From positions 1,736,001 through 1,800,000 of the forward strand of contig NC_089430.1 in the NCBI RefSeq assembly GCF_026210795.1: DNA of 64,000 nucleotides, given 5' to 3'. The notes below the pieces were generated by a model. It worked only from the letters and a program-made list of their open reading frames with translations, was not told where the DNA came from and searched no databases. The position numbers and the translations under genes were made by a program. Positions within the stretch are counted from its first letter, which is position 1. Each line of letters opens with the position of its first letter. The stretch is from Rhizophagus irregularis. Taxonomy: Eukaryota; Glomeromycota; Glomeromycetes; Glomerales; Glomeraceae. This document shows positions 9,947 through 51,160 of this stretch, one piece after another.

Positions 9947-10154
9947 CCCTAATCAAGATAATAATACAATTAGTAAGTAAATATGTATCAATGATCAAAA
10001 AAAAGTTTAATATATTATAATTTTATTATATACATCAGGACAGTAAATTATTTTTTATGATTTATAACGAACATTTAACATTTTAAGTTTGTCTTGCACG
10101 TTAAATAAACAAGTAATTAAAAAAAAGAACATTTAAAATTTTGAATTTTTAAAA

Positions 10155-10445
10155 TCAAAGTTTCTTAGGAAACCAAGTTTCTGCGTCAGCGTCACGTTCC
10201 TCCAACGCTTCTGGTTCTGCGTCATGTTGGCCCAGGCCACTTCCTAGGTTGAGCTTCTGCATCTGCGTCATGTTTTACATCATTTGGTTCTGAGTTACCC
10301 AAAGCTTTTATAATATTATTAAAAGATTCCATTTTAATAATTAATATTAAAATTAATAAAAAAAAGAAAAAACTTTAACATGAAGAAATTGTTTATTGGG
10401 TAATACCCGCTAAAACAATAGTAAAGACAAATATTTAGATCGCAT
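10155..10445 (-). pseudogene. Decayed secreted repeat-peptide precursor (copy 1)
   Basis: This is a relic of the gene intact at 18899-19268. A minus-strand ATG at 10445 starts a shortened hydrophobic leader that now meets a stop (TTTTAGCGG) where the intact copy reads ...ALA. After an intron-like interval the body reads KALGNSEPNDVKHDADAEAQ..., then, after a one-base frame change, DAEPEALEERDADAETWFP and a stop near 10155. The X-Ala/X-Pro dipeptide spacers (DA-DA-EA, DA-EP-EA, DA-DA) are those of the intact copy, but the cores between them differ, so the family seems to have had diverse peptides. Promoter homology continues upstream to about 11570. Confidence 0.7.
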
Positions 10446-10529
10446 GATTGATTTTATGTATGTTATATTTGTTATATAAAATTTTTAATTTGTTTGTTAA
10501 TTTATTTTTTATAAAAAATTTCTCTCCTC

Positions 10530-11030
10530 TTTCTCAAAGTGTTTATATAGGAAAATTTTCTATATTAACTCATTATTTATGATAACATTGTTTTAATTAG
10601 TATTCCGAAATTTAAGCAGCCATTTTTTTTTTTTTTAAATTTAACTCCGGCCAAAGTCATCATAATTCTGACCAAAATCGCACATAATGCGGGCCGACGT
10701 TGCTTATTTTCAGGTATTACCAATGAAAGAAGACGTACAATTGCCACGTTTTATTACATTGCGCCATGTTAAATCTACAATTGAATAGCAGAGCCACTTT
10801 AACCTTTATATTAATAATGTGAGAATGCGAGATTCTGATTTCAATAATTATTTTGAGCCGCAATCATCGTAAATTGTTGTTTTATTAACGAGAGTGAATT
10901 AAAAAGATACGTTACGAGAGTATTTTTGCCACGTTTTTTTACATTGCGCAATCGGAATGAAACGGTATTAATAATGTGAAAATAGATGATCTTTTTTTTT
11001 TAAAAAAAAAAATTCATGAGTAAATATGTC
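10530..11030 (-). promoter_or_regulatory. Conserved upstream region of peptide-precursor copy 1
   Basis: A TATATAAAC word lies about 100 bp upstream of the relic start. Further upstream the module TTGCCACGTTTT...ACATTGCGC...AATAATGTGAAAA occurs twice in tandem (about 10734-10835 and 10928-10990). The same module is upstream of the other two copies (about 19435-19520, and as reverse complement 20930-21112). Conservation across three loci whose coding parts have diverged suggests a shared promoter or cis-element; its regulator is unknown. Confidence 0.55.
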
Positions 11031-14170: not shown

Positions 14171-14336
14171 GTAGAATTATATTTTTTTTTATACTGTAAA
14201 TAGAAAATTTTGATTGAAAAATGTGTCAATGTTGTGTAACCGTTTACTAAAAAATAAATAATCTTCTGTACGACATAAAAATTTTAGCCAAGTGAATTTT
14301 ATGGCAAGCCGTTCAAGTCAAAAGTCCGCCGCTATT

Positions 14337-14490
14337 GCAGCAGGTACCTGTTGCTTTCGCGGCAGGTACCTGCTAGATTTGCAGCAGGTATCTGCTGGAT
14401 TCACGGCAGATACCTGCTAGATTTGCGGCAGGTACCTGCTGAATTAGCGGCAGGTACCTGCTGAACTTGCAGCAGGTACCTGACAGGTTA
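14337..14490. repeat. 22-bp minisatellite, left arm
   Basis: Seven units of the form NGCAGGTACCTGCTGNATT, some with one mismatch (GGTATC, AGATACC). Each unit is self-complementary, so single-stranded DNA or RNA here could form a row of hairpins. Confidence 0.85.
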
Positions 14491-15708: not shown

Positions 15709-15901
15709 CAGGTACCTGCTGCAAGTTCAGCAGGTACCTGCCACAAATCTAGCAGGTACCTGCCGCAATTCTAGCAGGTACCTGCCACAAATCTAGCAGG
15801 TACCCGCCGCAATTCTAACAGGTATCTGCTGCAATTCTAGCAGGTACCTGCTGCAAATTCAGCAGGTACCTGCCACAAATCTAGCAGGTACCTGCCGCAA
15901 T
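15709..15901. repeat. 22-bp minisatellite, right arm
   Basis: Nine units beginning CAGGTACCTGCCGCAATTCTAG or close variants; the inverted counterpart of the array at 14337-14490, with a different copy number. Confidence 0.88.
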
Positions 15902-16610: not shown

Positions 16611-18543
16611 ATGGCTACTATTCGACAAGAAATAGTTAGTGCTGCAATTCATAGAGCAAATGCATTATTAGACCCTAATATTCAAAATAATTTAGAAAAA
16701 CAACATGTATTTAGAAAACAAACAGTTCTTGCTGACAAATCTCTTACAAAGGATGAAAAATCATATGCAGTAAAAATATTAAATGAAAATTTTGATTATC
16801 ATAACATTCTTTATAATCAAGGAACAAAAAGAATTTGTGAAAATTGTCATGATGACATTATATTGTGAACATTGTATTCGAAATTATTTAAAAGAAAATT
16901 TTTCAAACTGGACATCTGGAAATAATGATATTGATAATTTAATACAACAATGTCAAATAAAAGCACTTATCCCAAATTTGATAGTAGAATGGATTCCTTA
17001 TAATAATTTACAAAATATTGAATACTTAACTAAAGGTGGATGTTCCGAAATTTATACAGCAGTTTGGATTGATGGACCTTATTATGAATGGGATTCAAAA
17101 GAAAAACAATTAAAAAGAGATGGTAGATGGGTAAATGTAGTGCTCAAAAAATTAGAAAATGTCGAAAGTGCCAATAAAAGTTGGTTTGAGGAGGTATATA
17201 CAAGTAATTAAAAGTATTTTGAATTTTTTTTTTAAATTTAATTGCAATTCTTTTAATTTTGTAGGGTATGTCTCATCTATATTTAGGTAGCAAAACTTTT
17301 CTTATAGTGCGATGTTATGGTTTAACTCAAAATCCATTTAATGGAAATTATATGATTGTAATGAATCGTATGGATATAAATCTAAGAGAATATTTGCAAC
17401 AAAATCACAATAAACTCACATGGAAAGAAAGAATTCAAATTATTGATAGTATAATTAGCGCAGTTTATGATATTCACAGAGAGGGTGCAATCCACAGAGA
17501 TTTACATTCTGGAAATATATTATTTAATCAAAATGATCAAAGATTTTTCATCAGTGATTTAGGATTTTGTGGACCAGCTAATATACCATTAGATAGTATA
17601 TATGGAAATCTTTCATATATAGCACCAGAAGTCATTGTTAAGAAGAAATATATTTTTGCATCTGATATTTATAGTATTGGCATACTTATGTGGGAAATCT
17701 CATCTGGACAACCACCTTTTATTAATAAACATGATTATGATCTTGCAATAAGAATAATAAATGGAATGAGACCAAAAATAATACCAGGCACTCCTTTAGA
17801 ATATAAAGAATTAATGGAACAATGTTGGGATGCTAATCCTGCGAAAAGACCTGATATTTACACTCTTTCTAATAAAATGGGTGATATTTATAGATCATAT
17901 TGTCAAAATGAAAATGAACAAAGAATAATTAGTAAAATTACGAGTATTAATAGCTCTCAATTAAATACAAGATTTAATGTGAATTCTAGTTCTAGTGATA
18001 GTTCCTTCTTTGGAAATTTTAGTGCAAGTTCTAGTAATTGGAATATTAGTAGTAGAGTTTATAATTTTGAAAATTTACCTGAACCAAAAAATGCAACAAA
18101 AGGTAAGAATTTTTTATTGTATAGTTTTACTTATTACAATATTAATATTAATTATTCACTTTATTCATTTAGAAGAACAAGATGGTAATTATTAAAATAT
18201 GTATAGTTATTTTTTTTACTATGTTAACTTTATTTTTATAGCTTATTATAGTATACAATTTGATTTTGATTTACAAGATGGTTTGATTATTGGTAAGGTT
18301 AGCAATTAATATATTTGTGTTGAAAATTTTCGATATATAATTCTAATTTATATCTATTTATTTTTAAATAAAATAGAAGAGAAATCCAATAAAAGAAGTT
18401 ATTTTGATTGTAATAGATCATTTTTATAATAATTTATTATAATGCTGTAAATCAAATAATCAATTTTTTTTATTTATTATTATAAAATAGATGATGAAAA
18501 AGATCTAGCTTCTAACTCTAATAAAAAAAGTCAATTTAAATAA
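16611..18543 (+). pseudogene. TKL-like protein kinase copy A, frameshifted
   Basis: This is the paralogue of the intact gene at 49131-51160. Exons by phase: 16611-17193, 17265-18102, 18173-18184, 18242-18292, 18377-18409 and 18491-18543 (TAA). Exon 1 has lost 11 bases near 16855 relative to copy B (GATGA|CATTATA against GATGAATGTTTGGCTACATTATA, split here as GATGAATGTTT and GGCTACATTATA). The frame therefore shifts inside the Cys-rich N-terminus and meets a stop at 16868; the second half reopens in another frame. The kinase domain is otherwise complete: WTSGNNDIDN, weak glycine loop KGGCSEIY, beta-3 Lys in VVLKK, catalytic HRDLHSGN, DLG, APE and DIYSIGILMWE. A one-base insertion in the last exon also moves the stop. 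Loss of function is likely unless an initiation downstream or RNA-level repair rescues it. Confidence 0.8.
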
Positions 18544-18898: not shown

Positions 18899-19268
18899 CT
18901 ACCCTAATGAAGATTCTACAATGTCTGCGTCACGTTTATATCCATAGGCTTCTGGTACCGCGTCACGTTTATATCCATAGGCTTCTGGTACCGCGTCACG
19001 TTTATATCCATAGGCTTCTGCTTCCGCGTCACGTTTATAGCCATAGGCTTCTGGTACCGCGTCACGTTTATATCCATAGGCTTCTGCTTCCGCGTCACGT
19101 TTATAGCCATAGGCTTCTGGTGCTGCGTCTGCGTTAATAGTGAATTAAAATATTATTAAAAGAATTCGTTTGACTAATTTGATAAAAAAGAAAAAATTTT
19201 TTAATAATTTATTTACTCGCTAAAGCCATAGTAAAGCCGAAAATCAATAGTAAGTGTTTTAATTGCAT
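18899..19268 (-). CDS. Secreted Kex2-processed repeat-peptide precursor (pheromone/KEP/RiPP-like)
   Basis: Two exons: 19268-19217 and 19128-18899, with an 88-bp intron (donor GTAAAT, acceptor TTAACGCAG). Together they give 93 residues ending at TAG 18901-18899. Exon 1 is exactly a signal peptide, MQLKHLLLIFGFTMALA. Exon 2 is six 11-residue repeats: NAAPEAYGYKR, DAEAEAYGYKR, DAVPEAYGYKR, DAEAEAYGYKR, DAVPEAYGYKR, DAVPEAYGYKR, then DADIVESSLG. Every repeat ends in Lys-Arg, a Kex2 site. Every spacer splits into three X-Ala or X-Pro dipeptides, the substrate of Ste13/DPAP enzymes that trim fungal alpha-pheromones. The predicted mature core is Tyr-Gly-Tyr (six copies), made in the secretory pathway and exported. 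The layout also fits KEP proteins and dikaritin (ustiloxin-type) RiPP precursors, but no UstY-like gene is in view. Unspliced, the frame has stops, so the splice call matters. The long ORFs seen here in other frames are repeat shadows. Confidence 0.78.
18928..19128. repeat. 33-bp coding minisatellite, six units
   Basis: A tandem array on the minus strand of a 33-bp unit encoding the 11-residue peptide repeat. Units alternate between GCGGAAGCAGAAGCC and GCGGTACCAGAAGCC types and between TATGGCTAT and TATGGATAT, so copies are near-identical at the DNA level and changes keep the peptide core. Confidence 0.95.
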
Positions 19269-19349
19269 GATTTCAGATAATATTTTCGCGATATGTATAA
19301 CTTTTAATTCGTTGTTTGTTTAATTTGTTTGAAGAAAATTTTATTGTCT

Positions 19350-20080
19350 CAAGGTCTTTTTATAAGAAAGTTTTTCTATAATTACATTACAAATATTTCA
19401 TGATTATATTTTTTATATTCGTACAAGAGTATTTTTGCCACGATTTTTACATTGCGCCCATTGCGTCACAAACGAACAGCGCCACTTTAAATTAATAATG
19501 TGGAAATAGATGATTTCTTTTTTAATAAATATCGTGTGTATAATCGTAAATATGCCACATTTTTACATAATGGATTATGTTTTAGCTTGTTTTGAATAAT
19601 TGACATTATACTATTATCTTTACCATTTGTTTTCATTTCACAGCCACATTAGTTTTATTTTTTATTTTTATTATCCATGTGAACAAGATTACAGAAAGAT
19701 AGACAAGAACTAATTAAATTTCACAGCCACATTAGTGGAAATGGCTCGGATAATTCAATTTTAATCACATTATCACGTGATTTGTCAAACATAAATTATA
19801 TCGATGCATTAAAATAATAAATCACGTGATGCATTTTTTTTTTATTATTATACACAATTACACATATATAATATACGGCAATACATTATTTTAAAATAAG
19901 CGGATATACGATATTATTTAATATGAATTAAATGATTGAAAAATACGGATGATGAATCTTTATCATTTAATCCATTTTCCGAACACTGCTTCAGACATTA
20001 CTAAAAATATTGATATATTTGAATATAAAAATTGAGAATAACGAAAAATTTAAATTTCATTTAATAATATAATAAGCATA
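19350..20080 (-). promoter_or_regulatory. Upstream region of the peptide-precursor gene
   Basis: On the minus strand a TATAAAAAG word lies at 19364-19356, about 90 bp before the ATG. The conserved module TTTTTGCCACG...ACATTGCGCC...GCCACTTTAAATTAATAATGTGG lies at about 19432-19512, and CACGTGAT words follow near 19773 and 19823. The same order of elements is found upstream of the two relic copies. A 65-bp retro-insertion (19653-19717) interrupts the region. Confidence 0.55.
19653..19717 (-). mobile_element. Severely 5'-truncated retroelement insertion, 18-bp TSD
   Basis: A 65-bp insert flanked by the exact 18-bp duplication ATTTCACAGCCACATTAG (19635-19652 and 19718-19735). Read on the minus strand it is a 3' end, AACAAGATTACAG...-like sequence as reverse complement, finishing in an A/T tail ATAAAAATAAAAAATAAAA. 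Its body, ATCCATGTGAACAAGATTAC on the plus strand, is identical to the 3' end of the 10-kb insertion at 30155-40231. The tail, long TSD and 5' truncation are the marks of target-primed reverse transcription. Confidence 0.9.
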
Positions 20081-20699: not shown

Positions 20700-21256
20700 T
20701 CCTCGTAGTACAATGTACACTATATCAAATGGTGATCTCTCTATGTTATGTTTGACAAATCACGAGATGATGTGACTAAACATAAGTGATGTAATTTAAA
20801 ATAAATAGTATGAATAATAGTATGATGACGATTTTTCAAACCCATTTTAAAACATAATCATCTTTACACCATACATCTATACACACGATTTTTTTTTTAA
20901 AAAATAAAATCTATTTAAAAAAAAAAATCTATTTCCACATTATTAATTCAAAGTGGCACTGTTCGTTCCAATTGTGGCGCTATAAATAAAACGTCACTTA
21001 TACTTCGCCTCGTTAATAATTTTACTGATATCAAAATCTCGCATTTTCACATTATTAATTAAATTCGATTGTAAATTTTAGCATGGCGCAATATAGAAAA
21101 ACGTGGCAAAAATAATCTTGCTAGCCCTTTTATTGAAACAATCGACCCAATGTGATCATGAAATAATTTGAAATACGTGTTACTATAGAAAACTTTTCTT
21201 ATACAAACAATTTGAGAAAGAGGAGAGAAATTTCTACAAATTAAAATTAATCAATC
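20700..21256 (+). promoter_or_regulatory. Upstream region of peptide-precursor copy 3
   Basis: The plus strand here is the reverse complement of the module upstream of copies 1 and 2. CCACATTATTAATTCAAAGTGGC and GCGCAATATAGAAAAACGTGGC-type blocks occur twice (about 20933-20980 and 21048-21110; given here as CCACATTATTAATTC, AAAGTGGC, GGCGCAATATAG, AAAACGTGGC). A TTATACAAAC word lies near 21199. Copies 2 and 3 are thus arranged head-to-head. Confidence 0.5.
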
Positions 21257-21465
21257 ATACAATTTTAAATACTTATTATTTATTGATTTTTGTCTTTACT
21301 ATTGCTTTAGCGGGTACTAATAAATAATTTCTTTATGTTAAATTTTTTCTTTTTCTTTTTTATTAATTTTAATATTAACTATTAAAATGTCATTTTTTAA
21401 TAAAGCTTTTGGAGAAATCGATAAACGTGACGTAAACGCAACCGTTTTCCAAACAAATAACGTTA
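21257..21465 (+). pseudogene. Decayed secreted repeat-peptide precursor (copy 3)
   Basis: The former start is ATA instead of ATG (21257). The leader can still be read as LLIFVFTIALA-like after a one-base frame change, then an intron-like gap (donor near GCGGGTACTA at 21310). The body begins AAAGCTTTTGGAGAAATCG and reads GEIDKRDVNATV, with one remaining Lys-Arg-Asp-X-X-Ala motif, before a stop. Loss of start, frame and repeats marks it as a relic. Confidence 0.6.
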
Positions 21466-21999
21466 TAAATCATATACTGTCGTAGATTAATTAATATAAT
21501 AAAACAAGTAAACAAGTAAACATTAAAGAGCTTTAAATATTAACGAATAGTAAAACTTTATTATGATTAAAAGTTTTGAAATGAAATTATTAACAAATGA
21601 AAATATTCTTGTTATTTATTAAAAATATATTAATCTTGTGAAAAAATTTATCAAATATAATAAATTCAAATCATTCAAAAAAAAAAGATCTCGGATGATT
21701 ATGCTTTGATAAAGAAAAAAAATTTTTTAGATAATTATTTATTATTAAAAAAACGTTAGGCTTGCAAATCCCTGATTTTGTGCGGTTTGCGCCAGAGATG
21801 ACGCCGGCCTACTTAAACTTATACCACATAACATCACAACTTAATTATTAGAATTTTCAGGCTGGACATCTATCGATTTTGTATTTTGTAATGAAGTATG
21901 GACATTCATTATTAAGAATCCTGGGAAATCCTTTTAATAATAATATATTTGTAAAATGATGATAATTATTAAAAAAAAAAAACATTATTCCAATTGATA

Positions 22000-23688: not shown

Positions 23689-23849
23689 GTAGATTACATA
23701 TTTAATTGGTACAGGCACGGAGTCACACAGCAGGCACAATTCAACGAATATTTATGTATTAGGTAACATTAAATTTTTTTTATGACCGTGGAATTCTTTT
23801 TCAAATAAATTTGAGACAAACTTACTTCTAACAGAATTAAATTATAAAA

Positions 23850-25450
23850 ATGAGCTTTATTAACGAAAACCAACTAATATCTGAATCTAATGAATTAAAT
23901 ACTTCTGATAATTCTAATTCCGTAAAAATTAATCATGAAAATTGTTATGACCTAGTTAATAAAAAATTTTGGTGTAAAGGATGTGTTCCTCGTTGCATAA
24001 TTGAAGGATGGACCAGTGGAAATGATGATATTGATAATTTTATTAAGAGTTCGATTTATAATGCACATTTGAAATATATTGGTGATGGTAAATATGGCCC
24101 ATCATTTCTTGAATGGGTTCCATTTGATAGATTTGAAGATATGAAACAAATAGGTGAAGGCGGATTTGCAAAAGTGTATTCTGCAACTTGGATTGATGGT
24201 ATAGCAGAATACATTAAACAAGATGATGAAAATTGGATAAAACGTGAACTTAAATCCAATAAAGTTGCTTTAAAAAGGCTAAATGAATCACAGAATATGT
24301 CAGCTGATTTTTTAAATGAGGTATTTTTTTTCACATGTACTTATTTATAATTTTAAAAAAATTAAAATTTATTTAATTTATTTTAATTTGTATAATAGCT
24401 TAAAACACATTGGAAATTAAATCGCTTACAAGATAATTCTTTAAGATTTTATGGAATAACTAGAGACCCAGAAACTGAAGAAATTATGATGATTATGCAA
24501 CATGCAAAGAATGGAAATTTGAGAAATGTCCTTTCAAGTAATTTTGACAAAATTTTATGGTGTGAAAAAATTGGATATTTATATTATTCAACAATGGACC
24601 TTAAATATTTACATGAATTAGGATATTTTCATAAAGATTTTCATAGTGGAAATATATTAAATATCAACGGAGCTTCTTTTATATCAGATTTTGGATTATC
24701 TGGACCATCAAATGAACAAAAATTAGATAATAAAATATATGGCGTGTTGCCATATATTGCTCCAGAAGTTTTAAATGGAGAACCATATGCATTATCTTCT
24801 GACATTTATAGTTTTGGTGTAGTTATGGCTGAATTATCATCTGGAAAACCTCCTTTTTATAAAAGAAAACATGATAGTGGCTTAGCATTAGAAATATGTA
24901 ATGGACTCAGACCAGAATTTGGAAAAGGAACCCCTGAAATTTATAAGAAATTAGCTTATAGATGCATGAATGCTAATCCAAATCAAAGACCAACAGCTAA
25001 TGAATTATATGAAATATTAGAATGTTGGAAATCTCGTAAGGATGATGAAAAATATGGTTATAAAGGAGAGGAAGTTAGAATTGCATTTGAAGAAGCTGAT
25101 AAAGAGATACCAAATATTTCAGCCTTGTATGAAAAAGATCCTGATGCTATTTACACTAGTAGAGCATTTACATTTAAAAATTTATCAAAACCCATTAATT
25201 CATCTTCTACATATCTTAATGAAGAAGATGGTGAAGGTATTGCATTATGTATTATTTTGTATAAATTTTATAAAATAATTAAGGAAATATTCATTATAAT
25301 AGGTTGCCAGGATTCTCAGTTAGTTGACTTAGAGATTTCTAGTTCATTAAAATTAAAGGGTAAGTAGTTTAACTTATTACCTTTATCTATTTTAATGATG
25401 TAGAATAAACTAATAATTTTTAAATAATAGATGATGATGTTGACAACTAA
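23850..25450 (+). CDS. TKL-like protein kinase (gene C)
   Basis: Four exons by phase: 23850-24320, 24399-25236, 25303-25359 and 25431-25450 (TAA), giving 461 residues. A short N-terminus has one Cys pair (FWCKGC) and the family marker EGWTSGNDDIDNFI. The kinase domain has the glycine loop IGEGGFAKVY, beta-3 Lys in VALKRL, HKD in place of HRD (YFHKDFHSGNI), DFG in ISDFGLSGPS, APE in YIAPEV, and SSDIYSFGVVM. It should phosphorylate Ser/Thr or Tyr in the cytosol; substrate unknown. The second intron (25237-25302) is 66 bp without a stop, so retention would only add 22 hydrophobic residues. Phase supports splicing, because the last exons then end ...LKLKDDDVDN. The gene appears intact. It faces gene D tail-to-tail across about 1.5 kb. 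Confidence 0.85.
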
Positions 25451-26930: not shown

Positions 26931-28558
26931 TCAATCAGTAATTTCACATTCTAAACAATCGCTTTTGTCAGACTTTAGAAGACTTTCTGTAAATGGATTA
27001 GCAGTTAGTAACTTGATAAATAACCAAACAAGTAAATGAAGATCAATTATTACCTGAACATTTTATTGTTGATATATTATCATATATTTCATAATAACCA
27101 TCAGAATTTTTTGGTTCAGTAAGATTTTTATAATTAAATGGTCTACTTTTATAAATCGCTTCAGGGTGTATTTTATTCGTCAAAGGCGATGAGTTAGTTG
27201 ATGAATTATTATTAATTTGTCCCGCTTCTTCAATTTGTTTAATTAATTTGGTTTTATTGATGGATTCTGAATAGCTTTTTGTATCTTTATTAAAATCATT
27301 TAAAAACTCATTAAAAGTTCTTGAAAGAGATTTTGCATAAGGTCGATTTGATGGGTTCGCGTCTAAACAGCTTTTAATTATATGTAAAATTAATTTTGGT
27401 ACTTTAATATTAAATTCAGGTCTTAATCCTTTACAAATATCTAATGCTAACAATTCATCATGAGCAACATTATAATATGGAGGTAATCCTGAAATAACTA
27501 CATACATAATTATGCCAAAACTATAAATATCTGAAGCTTTGGTATAATCTTGTCCTCTTAAAATTTCAGGAGCCAAATAAGGTAAAACACCATATCTCAT
27601 ATTATTTCCTCCATTATAATTTGCTGGTTTACACAACCCCAAATCAGTTATACGAGGCGAAGTTCTATTACATACTATATTTCCAATATGTAAATCTCGA
27701 TGAATTAATTCTTTGCCATGAATTTTCCTGAGCCCAGCTGAAATAGATCTTAAGATGTTAATCTTACATCTCCATATCCGAATATTCAAATCCAAATTAG
27801 AAAATTTGTAACTGTTTTGCCATTTATGCTGCTTTTGACTTACTTCATTCAACAAATTTTGTAGATTTCCTCTCTCAGCATAATACATAACCATAATATA
27901 GTCTTTTGTATTAGGATCTTGAGTTATTCCATAACATCTAACAATGGTTTCTGTCATAGTATACTCATGAACTTTAAGATGTGATGTAATCTGATAGTTT
28001 AAATGAACTAGTTATTAAACTATAATTAATAAATAAAACACATAATATAATTAAGTATACCTCATTAATAAATTTCAATGTAACATTTTGTGAATTATTC
28101 AAACTTTTAAGAGCTACTAAGGAGTCACTGCCTCTTACTCTTCCCCATTTACGGTAACTAGTATCCCAGTGTGTGATATGGCCATCTTTCCAACTTGCTC
28201 TATATACTTTTCCAAATCCACCCTCTGCAATATATTTAGGTTTACCAAACCTATTATAGGGTATCCACTCTAATATTTGGTGATGGTTTTCTGCTGATAA
28301 CTGAGTATTTTGAATGAAATTATCAATTTCATCGTTACCACTGGTCCAACTGTCAAAATTTTCTTGGAATCTTTTTGAATTACAAGGTTGACACCAATCC
28401 TTTCCCGTATTTATTTGCTTACACATTATACATCTTCCATATTTTTGCTCAGTATTATTCGAAACACAAGACCAACAATATTTATTTAATTCATTATTAT
28501 GTGGTTTTTTGCATTGAACACATTTGCTTCTTGGATCTTCTGCATTTAATTGATTCAT
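26931..28558 (-). CDS. TKL-like protein kinase with Cys-rich N-terminus (gene D)
   Basis: Three exons: 28558-28061, 27990-27054 and 26986-26931, giving 496 residues in one phase-consistent frame and ending ESLLKSDKSDCLECEITD. The N-terminus carries four C-x-x-C pairs within ~60 residues (CVQC, CWSC, CIMC, CQPC), probably binding zinc. Then follow SWTSGNDEIDNFIQ, the glycine loop AEGGFGKVY, beta-3 Lys in LVALKSL, HRDLHIGN, DLG in ITDLGLCKPA, APE in YLAPEI and ASDIYSFGIIM. All catalytic residues are present. An enlarged segment before the catalytic loop (EVSQKQHKWQNSYKF region) distinguishes it from genes A-C. The first intron sits after FINE, the same place as in genes A, B and C, so the family shares this intron. 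It is probably a soluble signalling kinase. Confidence 0.87.
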
Positions 28559-28599
28559 AGTGCAGATAAATTATTTTGTCAGCAGATTTATTAAATATT

Positions 28600-34241: not shown

Positions 34242-36574
34242 ATGTCATCAGTTGAGGAAGATGGTTCCAAAGAAAACAAACCTAGAAAATTAACAAGCTG
34301 GATATGGCAATATTTCAAAGAAGAAACTAAAGAAGTTAAAAAAGGGGAGGAATGTGTTAATGTATTAGTTATGGTATGTCAAGTAAAAGAAGGTTCATCA
34401 TTAGCTATTTGTGGTACTGAATATGTTAGAAAAGACTCATCAACTGGAAATGCCATATCACATTTGCATGCAAAACATAATATAGTACAATCTGGAAAGG
34501 TTAATATATTAATAAATTAATGTATTTTATTGTATTATATAATTTATATATTGCTTATTAATTTTAAACTTATTTTTAATTTTTATATTTGAACTTTAGC
34601 TATTTGTTCAAACTGAAACACCAAGAAAAGGAAAAAGATATACTAAACAACAACAAAAAGAATTAAGGCAATTCTTAGTAGACTGGATAATTTCAGATTT
34701 ACTGCCTATACATACAGTACAAAGTGAAGCATTTCGGCGTTTTATTTACGAACTTGATCTAGTATTTACAATGCCTTGTGAAGAGACTGTTAGAAAAATC
34801 ATTCATGAAGCATATAATTATTCTTTTCCTCAACTTAAAGATATGTTATCGGTACAAGCAACATCTGTTTCTTTAACAATGGATCTTTGGACTGCACGTA
34901 ATCGGCAGGGCTATTTGGGAGTAACATGTTCATATATCAACCAATCTTTTAAATTGTGTGAATTTACTCTTGATATAGCTTATGTAAGGTACCCACACAC
35001 TTCTGCACATATAAAAGATACTTTGGTAAATATATTAAATGAATGGAATATTCGTGAAAAAGTTTATATTATTACTACAGATAATGCTAGTAATATGAAA
35101 AAGTGTGTTCAAGATATGGAAGGGGTGGAACAGTTAGGATGCACAGCACATACATTACAACTCATTATAGGTAAAGGTATGAAACCAGCAGAGATTTTAA
35201 TAGCAAGAGCAAAGCAATTAATTGATTTTTTCATGAGGCCAAAACAGAGTGAACGTCTTGAAGATGCTCAAAAAAATTTTCCAGGTTTGCAAGATGAATT
35301 AGAAAGAGAAATTACACTTCAAAATGAGGAAGAAGATAATGAACAAGATGAACAAGATATAATTGTAAATTTAATTAATATATCTTAAATCTTTTAAATT
35401 CAATTAATTAATTATTAATTTATGTAATTTTTAATAGGATCCAAGCAATACATCAACATATTTACATACTATTGCTGATACATCCACCCGCTGGAATTCC
35501 TCTTATTTAGCTTGGAATAGGTTACTATTACTTAAAAATCATATTAATGTAGTATTAAATACATTGGGATCACAGTTTGATCAAGATTCAAAAAAAGATT
35601 ACAAAACATTACAAAGTATAATGTTAAGTTCAGATGAATGGGATTTATTAAGAGATTTAAAACCAATTTTACAACCTTTTGCAGAAGCTACAGACCTTTT
35701 AGGAGGCAGTAATTATTGTACATTTTCCATAATGAATCCAATCTTAACTCAAATCAAAAAACAATTTGCACCTCCTATTTCATATAATATTAATCATGAT
35801 TATGGTAATTAAAATAAATATTTAATAATTTTGTTTTTACAAAAATTCTAATATTTAATATATTTATTTTCCAATTTAGGTATTAATTTTCAAAATGAAG
35901 AAACAGCTTTTGATGATATTATAGATGAAGAAGAAGATAATCAACAATTTACAGCTAGTTCACGAAAGCTTAAACTAAAAAATCCTATAAATACGCAAGG
36001 CATGTTGAATAAAATTAAATCAGCTCTTTATATATCAATAAATCATTATTGGAAAAACCTTACCAAGCCAGATGTCTTACTTGCAAGCCTTTTGGATCCA
36101 AGAATGAAAGATTTATCATTTGTCTCGTCTGAAAAAGGGGATGAAATTAAAAACTTATTGCGTGAAAAGTATAATGAAATGTATACTAACCCAACATCTC
36201 AGCCTATTCAACCAATAAGAAGTCCAGCAAAAAAGAAAAAAAATGCTTTATTAGCTAGTTTAAGAAAACCTTCTACACGATCTTGTAATGAAGTAGATGA
36301 GTATTTTCAGTTAGAAGAAATTGATCTTGAAAGCAATCCTTTTACTTGGTGGCATGAACGGGAGGAAAAATTTCCCATTTTGAGTTTTCTTGCCAAGAAG
36401 TACTTATCAGCTTATGCTTGTTCAACAGCAAGTGAACGATTATTTTCAGATGCTGGAAATTTATTAACTGCAAAGAGAACAAGAATTAGTCCTAATCTAT
36501 TTAAAAAATTGATATTTCTTAAAAGAAATGCTAAACATTTAGATAGTATTCATAAACCAGACGATTCTGATTGA
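34242..36574 (+). CDS. hAT transposase, BED zinc finger plus RNase H-like core
   Basis: Four exons: 34242-34499, 34600-35364, 35438-35804 and 35880-36574, giving 694 residues in one phase-consistent frame. The N-terminal BED-type finger has the aromatic start WIWQYF, a Cys pair (MVCQ...AICGTEY) and SSTGNAISHLHAKH. The RNase H-like core shows the first Asp in SLTMDLWTARN, the second in YIITTDNASNMKK, and the C-x-x-H element CTAHTLQL. The C-terminal dimerisation region is classical: FLAKKYLSAYACSTASERLF followed by SDAGNLLTAKRTRISP. It would bind the subterminal ATCCG clusters, cut at the TAG-G ends and reinsert with 8-bp duplications, and could mobilise some of the related MITEs here. No stop or frameshift was seen, so it may be active. 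The start ATG follows a TTTCAG acceptor. Confidence 0.93.
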
Positions 36575-48019: not shown

Positions 48020-49085
48020 TAGAAAAAAGTTGAAAGAAAAATATTTTATGCTAAAGTATATTGTTAAATTTATGGGAATCTTTTAAAAATCTACATTAAC
48101 GGATATCCAACAGATATGTGATTAATTACGGAAAAAAAGGACATAAAAATTTAGTTAATTTTCGAATAGTACTCATATTAAAACAACATTTTTCTTTTTA
48201 AGACAAATATTAATAAACAAAAATTAGTGACTTGTACCAAAATCGAGAAATAAGTATAAAAAAACGAACAAGAACGAATTAGTAAGAAAGTAACGTTTCA
48301 ATTTATTATATACAGTACATCTATTAATGTTTTTTTTTTTGTTTTACGCATAAAAAATTTTTCATAAAATAAGTTATACTTTAAAAAAAAAATTCTTGTA
48401 AATATTTTAATTTTTCAGTTACTCAATTTTAACTCACGTGATTAAGGATTTATATGGATCGACTGTTTACGTAAATTTTGTGAAACTAATTAATCTTCCG
48501 TACGACTTAAAAATTTCAGCCAAAATAATTTTCATTATTTTATTTACATATTTATTATTTTACCGCACAAAATAAAATTCCTCTTTTGGATGTGAAATTT
48601 TTTTTTCATTATATACAATTCTTTAAAAAGAAGTTGATAAAAAATATTTTATATAATGAATGAATAAAATATATTGTGAAATTTATGCGAACCTACGCCA
48701 ACGGATATCCAACGGAATTATCGGAAAAAAACGACATAAAAATTTAGTTGGCCTCGAATACTACCCATAAACAATATTTTTCTTTCTTTTTTTTTTTGAC
48801 AAATAATAATAAACAAAATTAGAGACTTAGCACCAAAATCGAGAAATACAACGAGTATAAAACTATACAAGAACGAACAAGAACGAATTAGAAAATAAAC
48901 AAAATTTATTATATACATCAATTGATGTTTTTTTTTTGTTTATTCATAAAAAATTTTTTCATAAAATAAGTTATACTTTAAAATTGAGAATTATTTTCCC
49001 TTTACTCAATTTAATTCACGTGATTAAGAATTCAGACTGTTTACGTAAATTTTGTGAAACTCAATCCGGAATTTAATAGACGTTC
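48020..49085 (+). promoter_or_regulatory. Tandemly duplicated upstream region of kinase gene B
   Basis: Two ~0.5-kb copies share AACGGATATCCAAC, a poly-T tract, ACAAATATTAATAAAC-like text, CACGTGATTAAG and GACTGTTTACGTAAATTTTG. Copy A has a single version (about 16130-16540). The repeated CACGTGATTAAG next to the gene could be a basic-helix-loop-helix site; that is inference. Confidence 0.55.
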
Positions 49086-49130
49086 ATCCTTTCATGTTTA
49101 AAATTGTATTTTAAATTTTATTATAGTATT

Positions 49131-51160
49131 ATGGCTACTATTCGACAAGAAATAGTTTTGGCTGCAATTAATAGAGCATTTGCATTAGTAGAGCCTAATA
49201 TTCAAAATAATTTGGAAAAACAACATGTATTTAGAAAACAAACTGTTCTTGCTGACAAATCTCTTACAGAGGGTGAAAAATCATATGCAGTAAAAATATT
49301 GAATAAAGGTTTTGATTATAATAAAATTCTTTATAATAAAGGAACAAAAAGAATTTGTGAAAATTGTCATGATGAATGTTTGGCTACATTATATTGTGAA
49401 CATTGTATTCGAAATTATTTAAAAGAAAATTTTTCAAACTGGACATCTGGAAATAATGATATTGATAATTTAATACAACAATGTCAAATAAAAGCACTTA
49501 GACCAGAATTGATAGTAGAATGGATTCCTTATAATAATTTACAAAATATTAAATACTTAACTAAAGGTGGATGTTCTGAAATTTATACAGCAGATTGGAT
49601 TGGTGGACGTTATGAGGAATGGGATTTAAAAGAAAAACAATTAAAAAGAGATGGAAGCATAAATGTAGTGCTCAAAAAATTAGAAAATGTTAAAAGTGCC
49701 AATAAAAGTTGGTTTGAGGAGGTATATACAAATAATTAAAAGTATTTTGAATTTTTTTTAAATTTTAATTGCAATTTTTTTAATTTTTGTAGGGTATATC
49801 TCATCTATACTTAAGTAGCAAAACTGGACTTATAGTGCAAAGTTATGGTTTAACTCAAAATCCAGATAATGGAAATTATATGATTGTAATGAATCATATG
49901 AGTTTTAATCTAAGAGAATATTTGCAACAAAATCATAATGAACTCACATGGAAAGAAAGAATTCAAATTATTGATAGTGTAATTGACGCAGTTTTGTCTA
50001 TCCACAGAGAGAATGCAATTCACAGAGATTTACATTCTGGAAATATATTATTTGGTCAACTAAATCAAAGCTTTTTCGTCAGTGATCTTGGATTTTGCGG
50101 ACCAGCTAATAAACCATTAGATTGCATATATGGAAATCTTTCATATATAGCACCTGAAGTTATTGTTAAAAAGAAATATACTTTTGCAGCTGATATTTAT
50201 AGTATTGGCATACTTATGTGGGAAATCTCATCTGGACAACCACCTTTTAATAATAAACATGATTATGATCTTGCAATAAAAATAGTAAAGGGAATGAGAC
50301 CAAAAATAATACCAGGCACTCCTTTAGAATATAAAGAATTAATGGAACAATGTTGGGATGCTAAACCTACGAAAAGACCTGATATTTACACTCTTTATTA
50401 TAAAATAAAGGATATTTATAGATGGCATTGTCAAAATGAAAATGAACAAAGAATAATTAGTAAAATTATGACTATTAATAACTCTCGATTAAGTACAAGA
50501 TTTAATGTAAATTCTAGTTCTAGTGATAGTTCCTTTTTTGGGAATTTTAGTGTAAATTCTAGTAATATGAATATTAGTAGTAGCGTTTATAATTTTGAAA
50601 ATTTACCTGAACCAAAAAATGCAACAAAAGGTAAGAATTTTTTATTATACAGTTTTACTTTTTACAATATAATATTAATTATTCATTTTATTTATTTAAT
50701 AGAAGAACAAGATGGTAATTTTTAAAATATGTTTAACTTAATATTGTTATTTTTTTACCATGTTAACTTTATTTTTATAGCTTATCATAGTATACAATTT
50801 GATTTTGATTTACAAGATGGTTTGATTATTGGTAAGATTAGCAAATGATATATTTTTTTAAAAAATTTCGACTTATAATTCTAATTTATATTCATTTATT
50901 TTTTAAATAAAATAGAAGAGAAATCTAATAAAAGAAGTTATTTTGATGGTAATAGCTCACTTTTAAATAATTATTACAATGCTGTAAATCAAATAATCAA
51001 ATTTTTATTTATTATAATAAAATAGATTATGAAAAAGATTTAGCTTATTACTCTAATAAAAAAGTCAATTCAAATAATAATGAAGGTAATTATTATTGAA
51101 ATTTTCATTTTTTATTTTTATCATTATTAATGTAATTAATATTAAATTTTAGAAATATGA
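49131..51160 (+). CDS. TKL-like protein kinase copy B (intact)
   Basis: Seven exons by phase: 49131-49721, 49793-50630, 50703-50714, 50781-50831, 50916-50948, 51026-51085 and 51153-51160 (TGA), giving 530 residues. The ATG at 49131 matches copy A; a longer frame upstream has no ATG. Residues ~70-100 hold CENCHDECLATLYCEHC (probable zinc site), then NWTSGNNDIDNLI. The kinase domain has the degenerate glycine loop KGGCSEIY, beta-3 Lys in VVLKKL, HRDLHSGN, DLG in VSDLGFCGPA, APE in YIAPEV and ADIYSIGILMWE. A Ser/Asn-rich tail (NSSSSDSSFFGNFS) leads into PEPKNATK and a tail built from tiny exons, including a 12-nt microexon. Probably a cytosolic signalling kinase; the loss of two loop glycines could reduce activity. 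Confidence 0.87.

Follow-up and report, generated by a model that had tools for sequence, protein, structure and literature searches.

A secreted-type repeat precursor with a Tyr-Gly-Tyr core in Rhizophagus irregularis and its dispersed family with a common promoter and leader and variable, very short predicted peptides

The 64,000-nucleotide stretch of Rhizophagus irregularis DNA analyzed here (the window, C2:1736001-1800000) carries on its minus strand a two-exon gene for a 93-residue secreted-type product, as determined by sequence, frame and splice analysis. This precursor is one of many, as it belongs to a dispersed family represented in the same genome by 24 curated models plus relics, whose members have a promoter, a 5'UTR, a signal-peptide exon and mostly a first-intron donor in common but differ in their cores. 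We consider it probable that the window gene is a secreted, Kex2-processed repeat precursor within a diversified family, trimmed to Tyr-Gly-Tyr (YGY) and most likely serving extracellular signaling. The family evidence gives good support to its reading as a KEP whose core is STE13-trimmed and remarkably short. What is new and most useful is the family itself, in which promoter, leader and cutting grammar are constant and the tiny cores are variable.

The gene extends from an ATG at 19268-19266 to a TAG stop at 18901-18899 (Table 1). Left unspliced, exon 1 runs into a stop; the predicted intron opens with the donor GTAAAT from 19216 and closes with the acceptor ACGCAG, the last base of which is 19129. 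In order, exon 2 encodes the units NAAPEAYGYKR, DAEAEAYGYKR, DAVPEAYGYKR, DAEAEAYGYKR, DAVPEAYGYKR and DAVPEAYGYKR followed by the tail DADIVESSLG, within a tandem array at 18927-19129 (33-nt period, 6.2 copies, 92% matches) whose other frames, according to the frame listing, are open too. A preceding sequence-only reading had proposed a signal peptide followed by six 11-residue repeats with YGY cores and Lys-Arg ends, and the sequence, the frames and the tandem array bear this out to the base; its frame-splitting intron also stands as a predicted intron, with the donor and the leader exon recurring in paralogues. As regards the defining features of a KEP, the secretion signal is represented by the hydrophobic stretch LLIFGFTMAL (mean Kyte-Doolittle 2.41) in a leader that is conserved family-wide, and six near-identical units are separated by KR where at least three, split by KR, RR or KK, define the class. 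All six units (6/6) also have an XA or XP dipeptide directly after the Kex2 site, which is the STE13 signature. A Pfam scan of the 93-residue protein returned Antistasin (23.6 bits, cut-off 21.2) and DUF4073 (17.8 bits, cut-off 28.8), both of which we regard as repeat noise because neither has a matched stretch on its own, and no mating-factor family at E 0.01. The window gene goes beyond a chance reading frame because nine other loci, found by protein similarity, have the donor GTAAATAAA and a leader exon resembling its own, and because all variation inside the YGYKR strings of the arrays falls at third codon positions.

Table 1. Coordinates of the window gene, its upstream motifs, its YGY paralogues and neighboring features (window positions unless a contig is named).
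Feature	Position	Strand	Details or basis
Upstream element TCGTGGCAAAAATACTCTTGTAC	19421..19443 = C2:1755421-1755443	-	motif search
TATA-type promoter motif TTTCTTATAAAAAGACCTTGAGA (family motif TTTCTTATATAAACACYTTGAGA)	19347..19369 = C2:1755347-1755369	-	2 mismatches
Exon 1: signal peptide MQLKHLLLIFGFTMALA and first base of next codon	19217..19268	-	
Predicted intron, 88 nt, GTAAATAAAT...ACGCAG	19129..19216	-	frame and paralogue comparison
Exon 2: six (XA/XP)3-YGY-KR units and tail DADIVESSLG	18899..19128	-	sequence, frames, tandem-repeat scan
YGY paralogue	C24:1.71 Mb		14 YGYKR units; six-frame search
YGY paralogue	C20:2.22 Mb		19 YGYKR units; six-frame search
YGY paralogue	C24:1.41 Mb		25 YGYKR units; six-frame search
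YGY paralogue L013	C20:1.90 Mb		11 YGYKR units, then 37 QEE units; six-frame search
Decayed family relative: promoter motif, degraded leader, KHDADAE remnant	10150..10554	-	motif search and reading
Decayed family relative: promoter motif, leader with ATA for ATG, DKRDVNA remnant	21195..21480	+	motif search and reading
Minisatellites on palindrome CAGGTACCTG, 22-nt period	14334-14482, 15709-15901		tandem-repeat scan
hAT transposase remnant (dimerisation domain PF05699 in 35852-36571)	34600-36574	+	Pfam
Four protein-kinase genes of one type	16783-18188, 23841-25367, 27043-28570, 49080-50725	both	Pfam kinase domains

A six-frame search of the genome (146.7 Mb, 32 contigs) with the precursor protein gave 21 matches, which included four further YGY genes, and the weaker matches showed the same promoter, 5'UTR, signal-peptide exon and donor with other cores. 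Across the arrays of the five YGY genes, every one of the 75 units that end in KR has the string YGYKR intact, and one unit flanking the array of L013 reads CGGYKR. Only synonymous codons replace one another in YGYKR (Gly GGC/GGA/GGT, Tyr TAT/TAC, Lys AAA/AAG, Arg CGT/CGG/CGC), and the 15-nt core occurs in 10 DNA versions. Among 53 full 11-residue units the numbers of variable columns at codon positions 1, 2 and 3 were 1, 1 and 8, a count that, with a protein motif used to pick the units, is by itself circular for the core. In the genome as a whole, YGYKR followed by [D/E]A was found at 76 places versus 0 in the control, and 75 of these lie inside the five YGY arrays; the remaining place, on C22, consists of two YGYKR remnants in different frames and has no leader. 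The first intron is 88 nt long in three of the four one-intron YGY genes and 94 nt in the fourth. In two YGY genes (L011 and L012) the last unit has TA(C/T)TAA where other units continue into AAACGT, and the frame is therefore lost there. L013 continues, at about 1918-2494 of that locus, into 37 in-frame QEE units that are separated by KR or RR and have no dipeptides, a second Kex2 array that would yield Gln-Glu-Glu tripeptides.

Whole dipeptides make up 68 of the 75 YGY spacers, and the other seven, which belong to a single gene, close with an unpaired Val (DAEPV) that would leave VYGY; YGY is thus not the predicted outcome for every unit. The number of dipeptides was described in the sequence-only reading as exactly three, which is true of the window gene but not of its paralogues, which have one, three or five before KR-ended units and, in one case, two before a terminal unit that has no KR. 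As such, three dipeptides as a fixed rule was dropped.

The TATA-type motif lies ~100 nt 5' of the ATG of the window gene. Allowing up to 3 mismatches, the promoter motif was found at 53 places in the genome versus 9 for the reversed control, and the upstream element, at up to 2 mismatches, at 49 places versus 0 for the reversed control; 23 of the 53 promoter matches have the upstream element within 600 nt upstream. Sixteen of the 49 upstream elements have neither a promoter nor a KR-DA-DA-E match downstream, and two of these were read, one (L108) being a family relic and the other (L107) having no recognizable gene. The KR-DA-DA-E type of pattern itself occurs at 49 places in 30 clusters, versus 0 in the control. 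Together the family copies are dispersed over 76 merged places on 22 contigs, a figure that includes chance matches and unrelated precursors and is not a gene count. Fifty of the 53 promoter matches were read (all but C2:250703, C13:2441427 and C16:1263764), and 20 of the 53 led to curated models, the rest of those read being weaker models, relics or places with no recognizable gene; four curated models (L017, L069, L072 and L076) came from other searches. The splice choices in L090 and L060 are uncertain, and L015 was read only to an early stop. In the 10 loci that were aligned the donor GTAAATAAA is invariant and the leader DNA has a median pairwise identity of 0.79 (range 0.62-0.98), while 22 of 23 exon-1 peptides are 17 residues long and follow, with few departures, the pattern M[QK][LF]K[HCY]LLLIF.FT..LA. 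By eye, the upstream regions of family members such as L035 (C17:3.58 Mb) have similar modules of about TTTTGCCACGTTTT...GCGCCATGTTAAAATTTACAATTGAAGAGCAGAGCCACTTTAA, some of them in tandem, which are possibly a regulatory cassette.

The surroundings of the gene include two decayed family relatives that flank it and a kinase gene (16783-18188) close to it. Elsewhere in the genome, three loci with upstream sequence unlike that of the family were observed: L056 (C1), with YRGGGGQKR units and EA/DP dipeptides; L059 (C3), with long Tyr/His/Lys-rich units ending in SSYKR; and L066 (C11), with one short KREAEAE protein. Judged by their secreted-looking sequences, these may be other Kex2 repeat or KREAEAE-type precursors.

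The cores that follow the first intron comprise YGY, QNF/QEY/QSF/QEF, QHY/QRY, FNY/AVAF/GVGF/VEY, LVAV/WGAF, EDFN/KDFN, QPPWAW/QQGW and others, none of which is common to the family (QNF and FNY are first units and stand outside the core counts below). The phasing of the dipeptides was analyzed in the 24 models, 20 of them entered from listed sequences and four spliced by script, with L013 shortened to a single QEE unit and its other QEE units left out; the weaker models (L036, L061, L067, L078, L092, L093 and L103) and the relics were set aside. Internal fragments came from only 19 of the 24 models because five have a single KR, and with first and C-terminal fragments dropped there were 132 fragments, 44 of them distinct. 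Under a trimming rule that stopped below 4 residues and before Pro, the 44 distinct fragments contained 93 removable N-terminal X-Ala or X-Pro dipeptides, versus 15.2 +/- 4.2 in shuffled fragments, and none of 5000 residue shuffles under the identical rule reached 93. After the Kex2 sites, 94 of 124 residues at positions 2, 4 and 6 were Ala or Pro, compared with 5 of 127 at positions 1, 3 and 5. This very strong phasing at the family level supports the STE13/DPAP dipeptide signature that had been read from the window gene.

After trimming, 27 of the 38 distinct predicted cores are 2-4 residues long and 11 of 38 are 5-12 residues long. The C-terminal residue is Y, F or W in 26 of the 38, versus 12 of 132 at other core positions, a contrast for which the Fisher p of ~8e-13 is indicative only, since cores within a family are not independent data points. 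The protease, instead of a receptor, could be what the aromatic residue in front of KR serves, two roles that are not separable here. In L030 (C16:3.90 Mb) there are 25 EDFN/KDFN-KR units, and 26 of its 27 units have no dipeptides, apparently showing one leader with two processing styles. Counting against full trimming throughout the family are the cores of up to 12 residues, L030 with nearly no dipeptides and the QEE repeats with none.

Genes of the enzyme types needed for the Kex2 and Ste13/DPAP maturation route put forward in the sequence-only reading are present in the genome, as assigned by domain only. Frames with a subtilase and a proprotein-convertase P-domain, with a hydrophobic segment further on, represent the Kex2 type on C32 (Pfam/domain matches), and DPPIV_N and Peptidase_S9 frames with a hydrophobic N-terminal segment (by eye) represent the Ste13/Dap2 type on C5, with a second DPPIV-like gene on C12. 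For the S10 carboxypeptidases there were 23 exon-level matches on C2, C15 and C19, in which Kex1 and vacuolar types are taken together. We propose that, once the signal peptide is removed, a Kex2-type protease would cut after each Lys-Arg, a Kex1-type carboxypeptidase would take off the Lys-Arg and a membrane dipeptidyl aminopeptidase of the Ste13 type would strip the X-Ala/X-Pro dipeptides. Each precursor would in this way release linear Tyr-Gly-Tyr outside the cell in six copies, or YGYKR where the ends are left untrimmed. From the sequence features described above we infer that the family precursors are expressed, spliced, secreted and cleaved and their peptides released, and that the members, given their common promoter, leader exon and first intron, are probably co-regulated. 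Diversification of the cores would then give many mostly 3-4-residue, mostly aromatic-ended peptides. By analogy, their likeliest role would be extracellular signaling, either fungus-fungus or fungus-plant, through a receptor other than the classical Ste2.

More tentatively, we speculate that one promoter-leader cassette might underlie a genome-wide, fast-diversifying library of tri- and tetrapeptides that acts as a peptide barcode in the recognition of hyphal strains or in signaling to roots. This possible library, mostly with an aromatic C-terminus, would include YGY, QHY, QRY, QEY, QEF, QSF, VEY, EIF, GTY, LNY, GVGF, AVAF, FGAF, WGAF and others. Such peptides might be small enough for di/tripeptide transporters, and a pyroglutamyl cap is possible where Gln leads. 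If the barcode reading is true, they would rank with the shortest ribosomally made peptide signals of fungi.

The secreted-type, repetitive and Tyr-rich nature of the product would also fit a structural role, in which the repeats or their peptides are cross-linked in the spore or hyphal wall (dityrosine or Rep1-like), and there is a parallel in Rep1 of Ustilago maydis, a Kex2-processed repeat protein described in the available text of two papers as giving peptides that are attached to hyphae (PMC6339444, PMC5293756). We consider this unlikely, in that the family-level dipeptide phasing suggests an exact trim that leaves only a few residues, Rep1 is said in the text of PMC6339444 to lack a STE13 signature, and wide variation of the cores under one promoter would be unlike a structural polymer. 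Glycine/proline-rich surface proteins are the subject of a separate paper, as far as its available part indicates (PMC8786786).

AM fungi are considered asexual or cryptically sexual. The sequence-only reading had named a mating or symbiosis signal of KEP type, of which the KEP type stands but the alpha-factor mating route is weakened. A strict alpha-factor pheromone acting via Ste2 would have the precursor layout and processing signals of MFalpha, as here, and a putative pheromone-sensing pathway with STE3, but with no peptide pheromone gene, is reported for AM fungi in the accessible text of Halary et al. (2013, PMC3834313); likewise, the available part of another report gives a putative mating response in which mating-pheromone genes were not up-regulated (PMC7490403). 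We nevertheless judge such a pheromone improbable and rejected it as the main reading. A STE2 search of the genome gave no match, which is weak evidence as the control genomes were equally silent, and the STE3-type receptor, which is of the a-factor type, was found at one place (C13), as published. Many different cores per genome misfit a single pheromone, and the Pfam scan gave no mating-factor family. No homology to MFalpha was seen in that scan, and YGY is unlike the pheromone cores quoted in the text of PMC6339444.

Oxidative cross-linking of Tyr after Kex2 cutting, as in the ustiloxins and related dikaritins, would make the product a RiPP, an option that the sequence-only reading had raised together with a check for UstY-like genes. 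Each YGY core has two Tyr residues, a test of cyclization in R. irregularis was suggested by Le Marquer et al. (PMC6339444, main text), and tyrosinase-family matches exist in the genome. Four tyrosinase-family frames lie in a row at C15:3883445-3900266. The check itself is of little weight, as a search of the genome for UstYa (DUF3328) gave no match with the control silent too. No candidate oxidase was present among the 18 window frames of at least 110 residues that were scanned against Pfam (four had kinase domains, one was a hAT transposase and the rest had no Pfam family), and in a 2020 survey none of 357 Mucoromycota KEPs was beside a DUF3328 gene, according to its text (PMC7329392). In addition, ustiloxin-type precursors are said in PMC6339444, in the text available, not to be predicted as STE13 substrates, and the same Tyr-Tyr link is impossible in paralogue cores with one Tyr or Phe, such as QHY, QEF and VEY. 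The cross-linking option is therefore not supported, and we rejected it as the main reading and regard it as quite improbable.

A non-functional minisatellite, with the open frame a by-product of the 33-nt repeat and the family spread as duplicates of a promoter-leader cassette, would account for the other open frames, for the many degraded relatives (two in the window and others elsewhere) and for the dispersal over the merged places noted above (chance matches and unrelated precursors included), but is highly improbable and was rejected on the constraint on YGYKR in all five arrays, with third-position changes only, and on a dipeptide phase held across unrelated cores, the signal peptide and donor being conserved as well.

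The reading that we prefer, a secreted Kex2-processed precursor trimmed to YGY, thus agrees with the earlier proposal of a secreted Kex2-type repeat precursor with a very short core, which gene anatomy and paralogues both support. With its single promoter, unchanging processing grammar and variable tiny cores, the family supplies a defined set of molecules to seek in exudates and to try on hyphae and roots. The leader and promoter, instead of the peptide, provide a search handle for such genes in other species, and this route would catch one- and two-unit members that a three-repeat pipeline would miss.

The kind of precursor is already known, because a 2019 study of R. irregularis reported Kex2-processed repeat proteins that are Tyr-rich and bear STE13 signatures: its text describes many KEPs, most with STE13 signatures and Tyr-rich deduced peptides, and raises their cyclization (Le Marquer et al. 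2019, PMC6339444). The window gene is like these KEPs in its signal peptide, its near-identical KR-split repeats, its STE13 XA/XP dipeptides and its Tyr-rich predicted peptides. Repeat-containing RiSPs with Kex2 sites, one group of which has very short motifs and is mostly expressed in planta, are described in the available text of Kamel et al. (2017, PMC5293756), and the window gene may already be in the supplementary tables of either paper. The main text of PMC6339444, as available, holds no family with a shared promoter, leader and intron and divergent, mostly 3-4-residue, aromatic-ended cores, and its pipeline, as described there, requires at least three repeats and would therefore leave out family members with one or two units. 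In the literature searches no YGY-family peptide strings and no combination of a tripeptide with Kex2 and Ste13 were found, and PMC6339444 alone dealt with RiPPs of AM fungi, judged by title and start of abstract. Nor did the available texts, or the matches listed, describe a family in which a single promoter and leader go with hypervariable cores that are mostly 3-4 residues long and aromatic-ended. The new element seems to be such a family, with a shared promoter and hypervariable, tiny, aromatic-ended peptides.

Compared with the alpha-pheromone precursors of ascomycetes (MFalpha1), the window gene shares a secreted prepro-protein, KR followed by EA or DA, a repeated peptide and a maturation by Kex2, Kex1 and Ste13, as set out in the text of PMC6339444. 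It departs from them in that cores here are mostly 3-4 residues long, not the 9-24 given there for ascomycete alpha pheromones, that there are many cores per genome and that no STE2 match (a weak negative) and no pheromone family in the Pfam scan were found. With the ustiloxin-type (dikaritin) precursors it shares the signal peptide, the KR-separated repeats and the Tyr in the core, but it has STE13 dipeptides, and there was no UstYa match (also weak) and no oxidase among the window frames scanned. The MSDIN and conotoxin families combine a conserved leader with a short mature peptide that is hypervariable across paralogues. Their leaders and processing enzymes differ from those of the YGY family, and the likeness is one of evolutionary pattern only.
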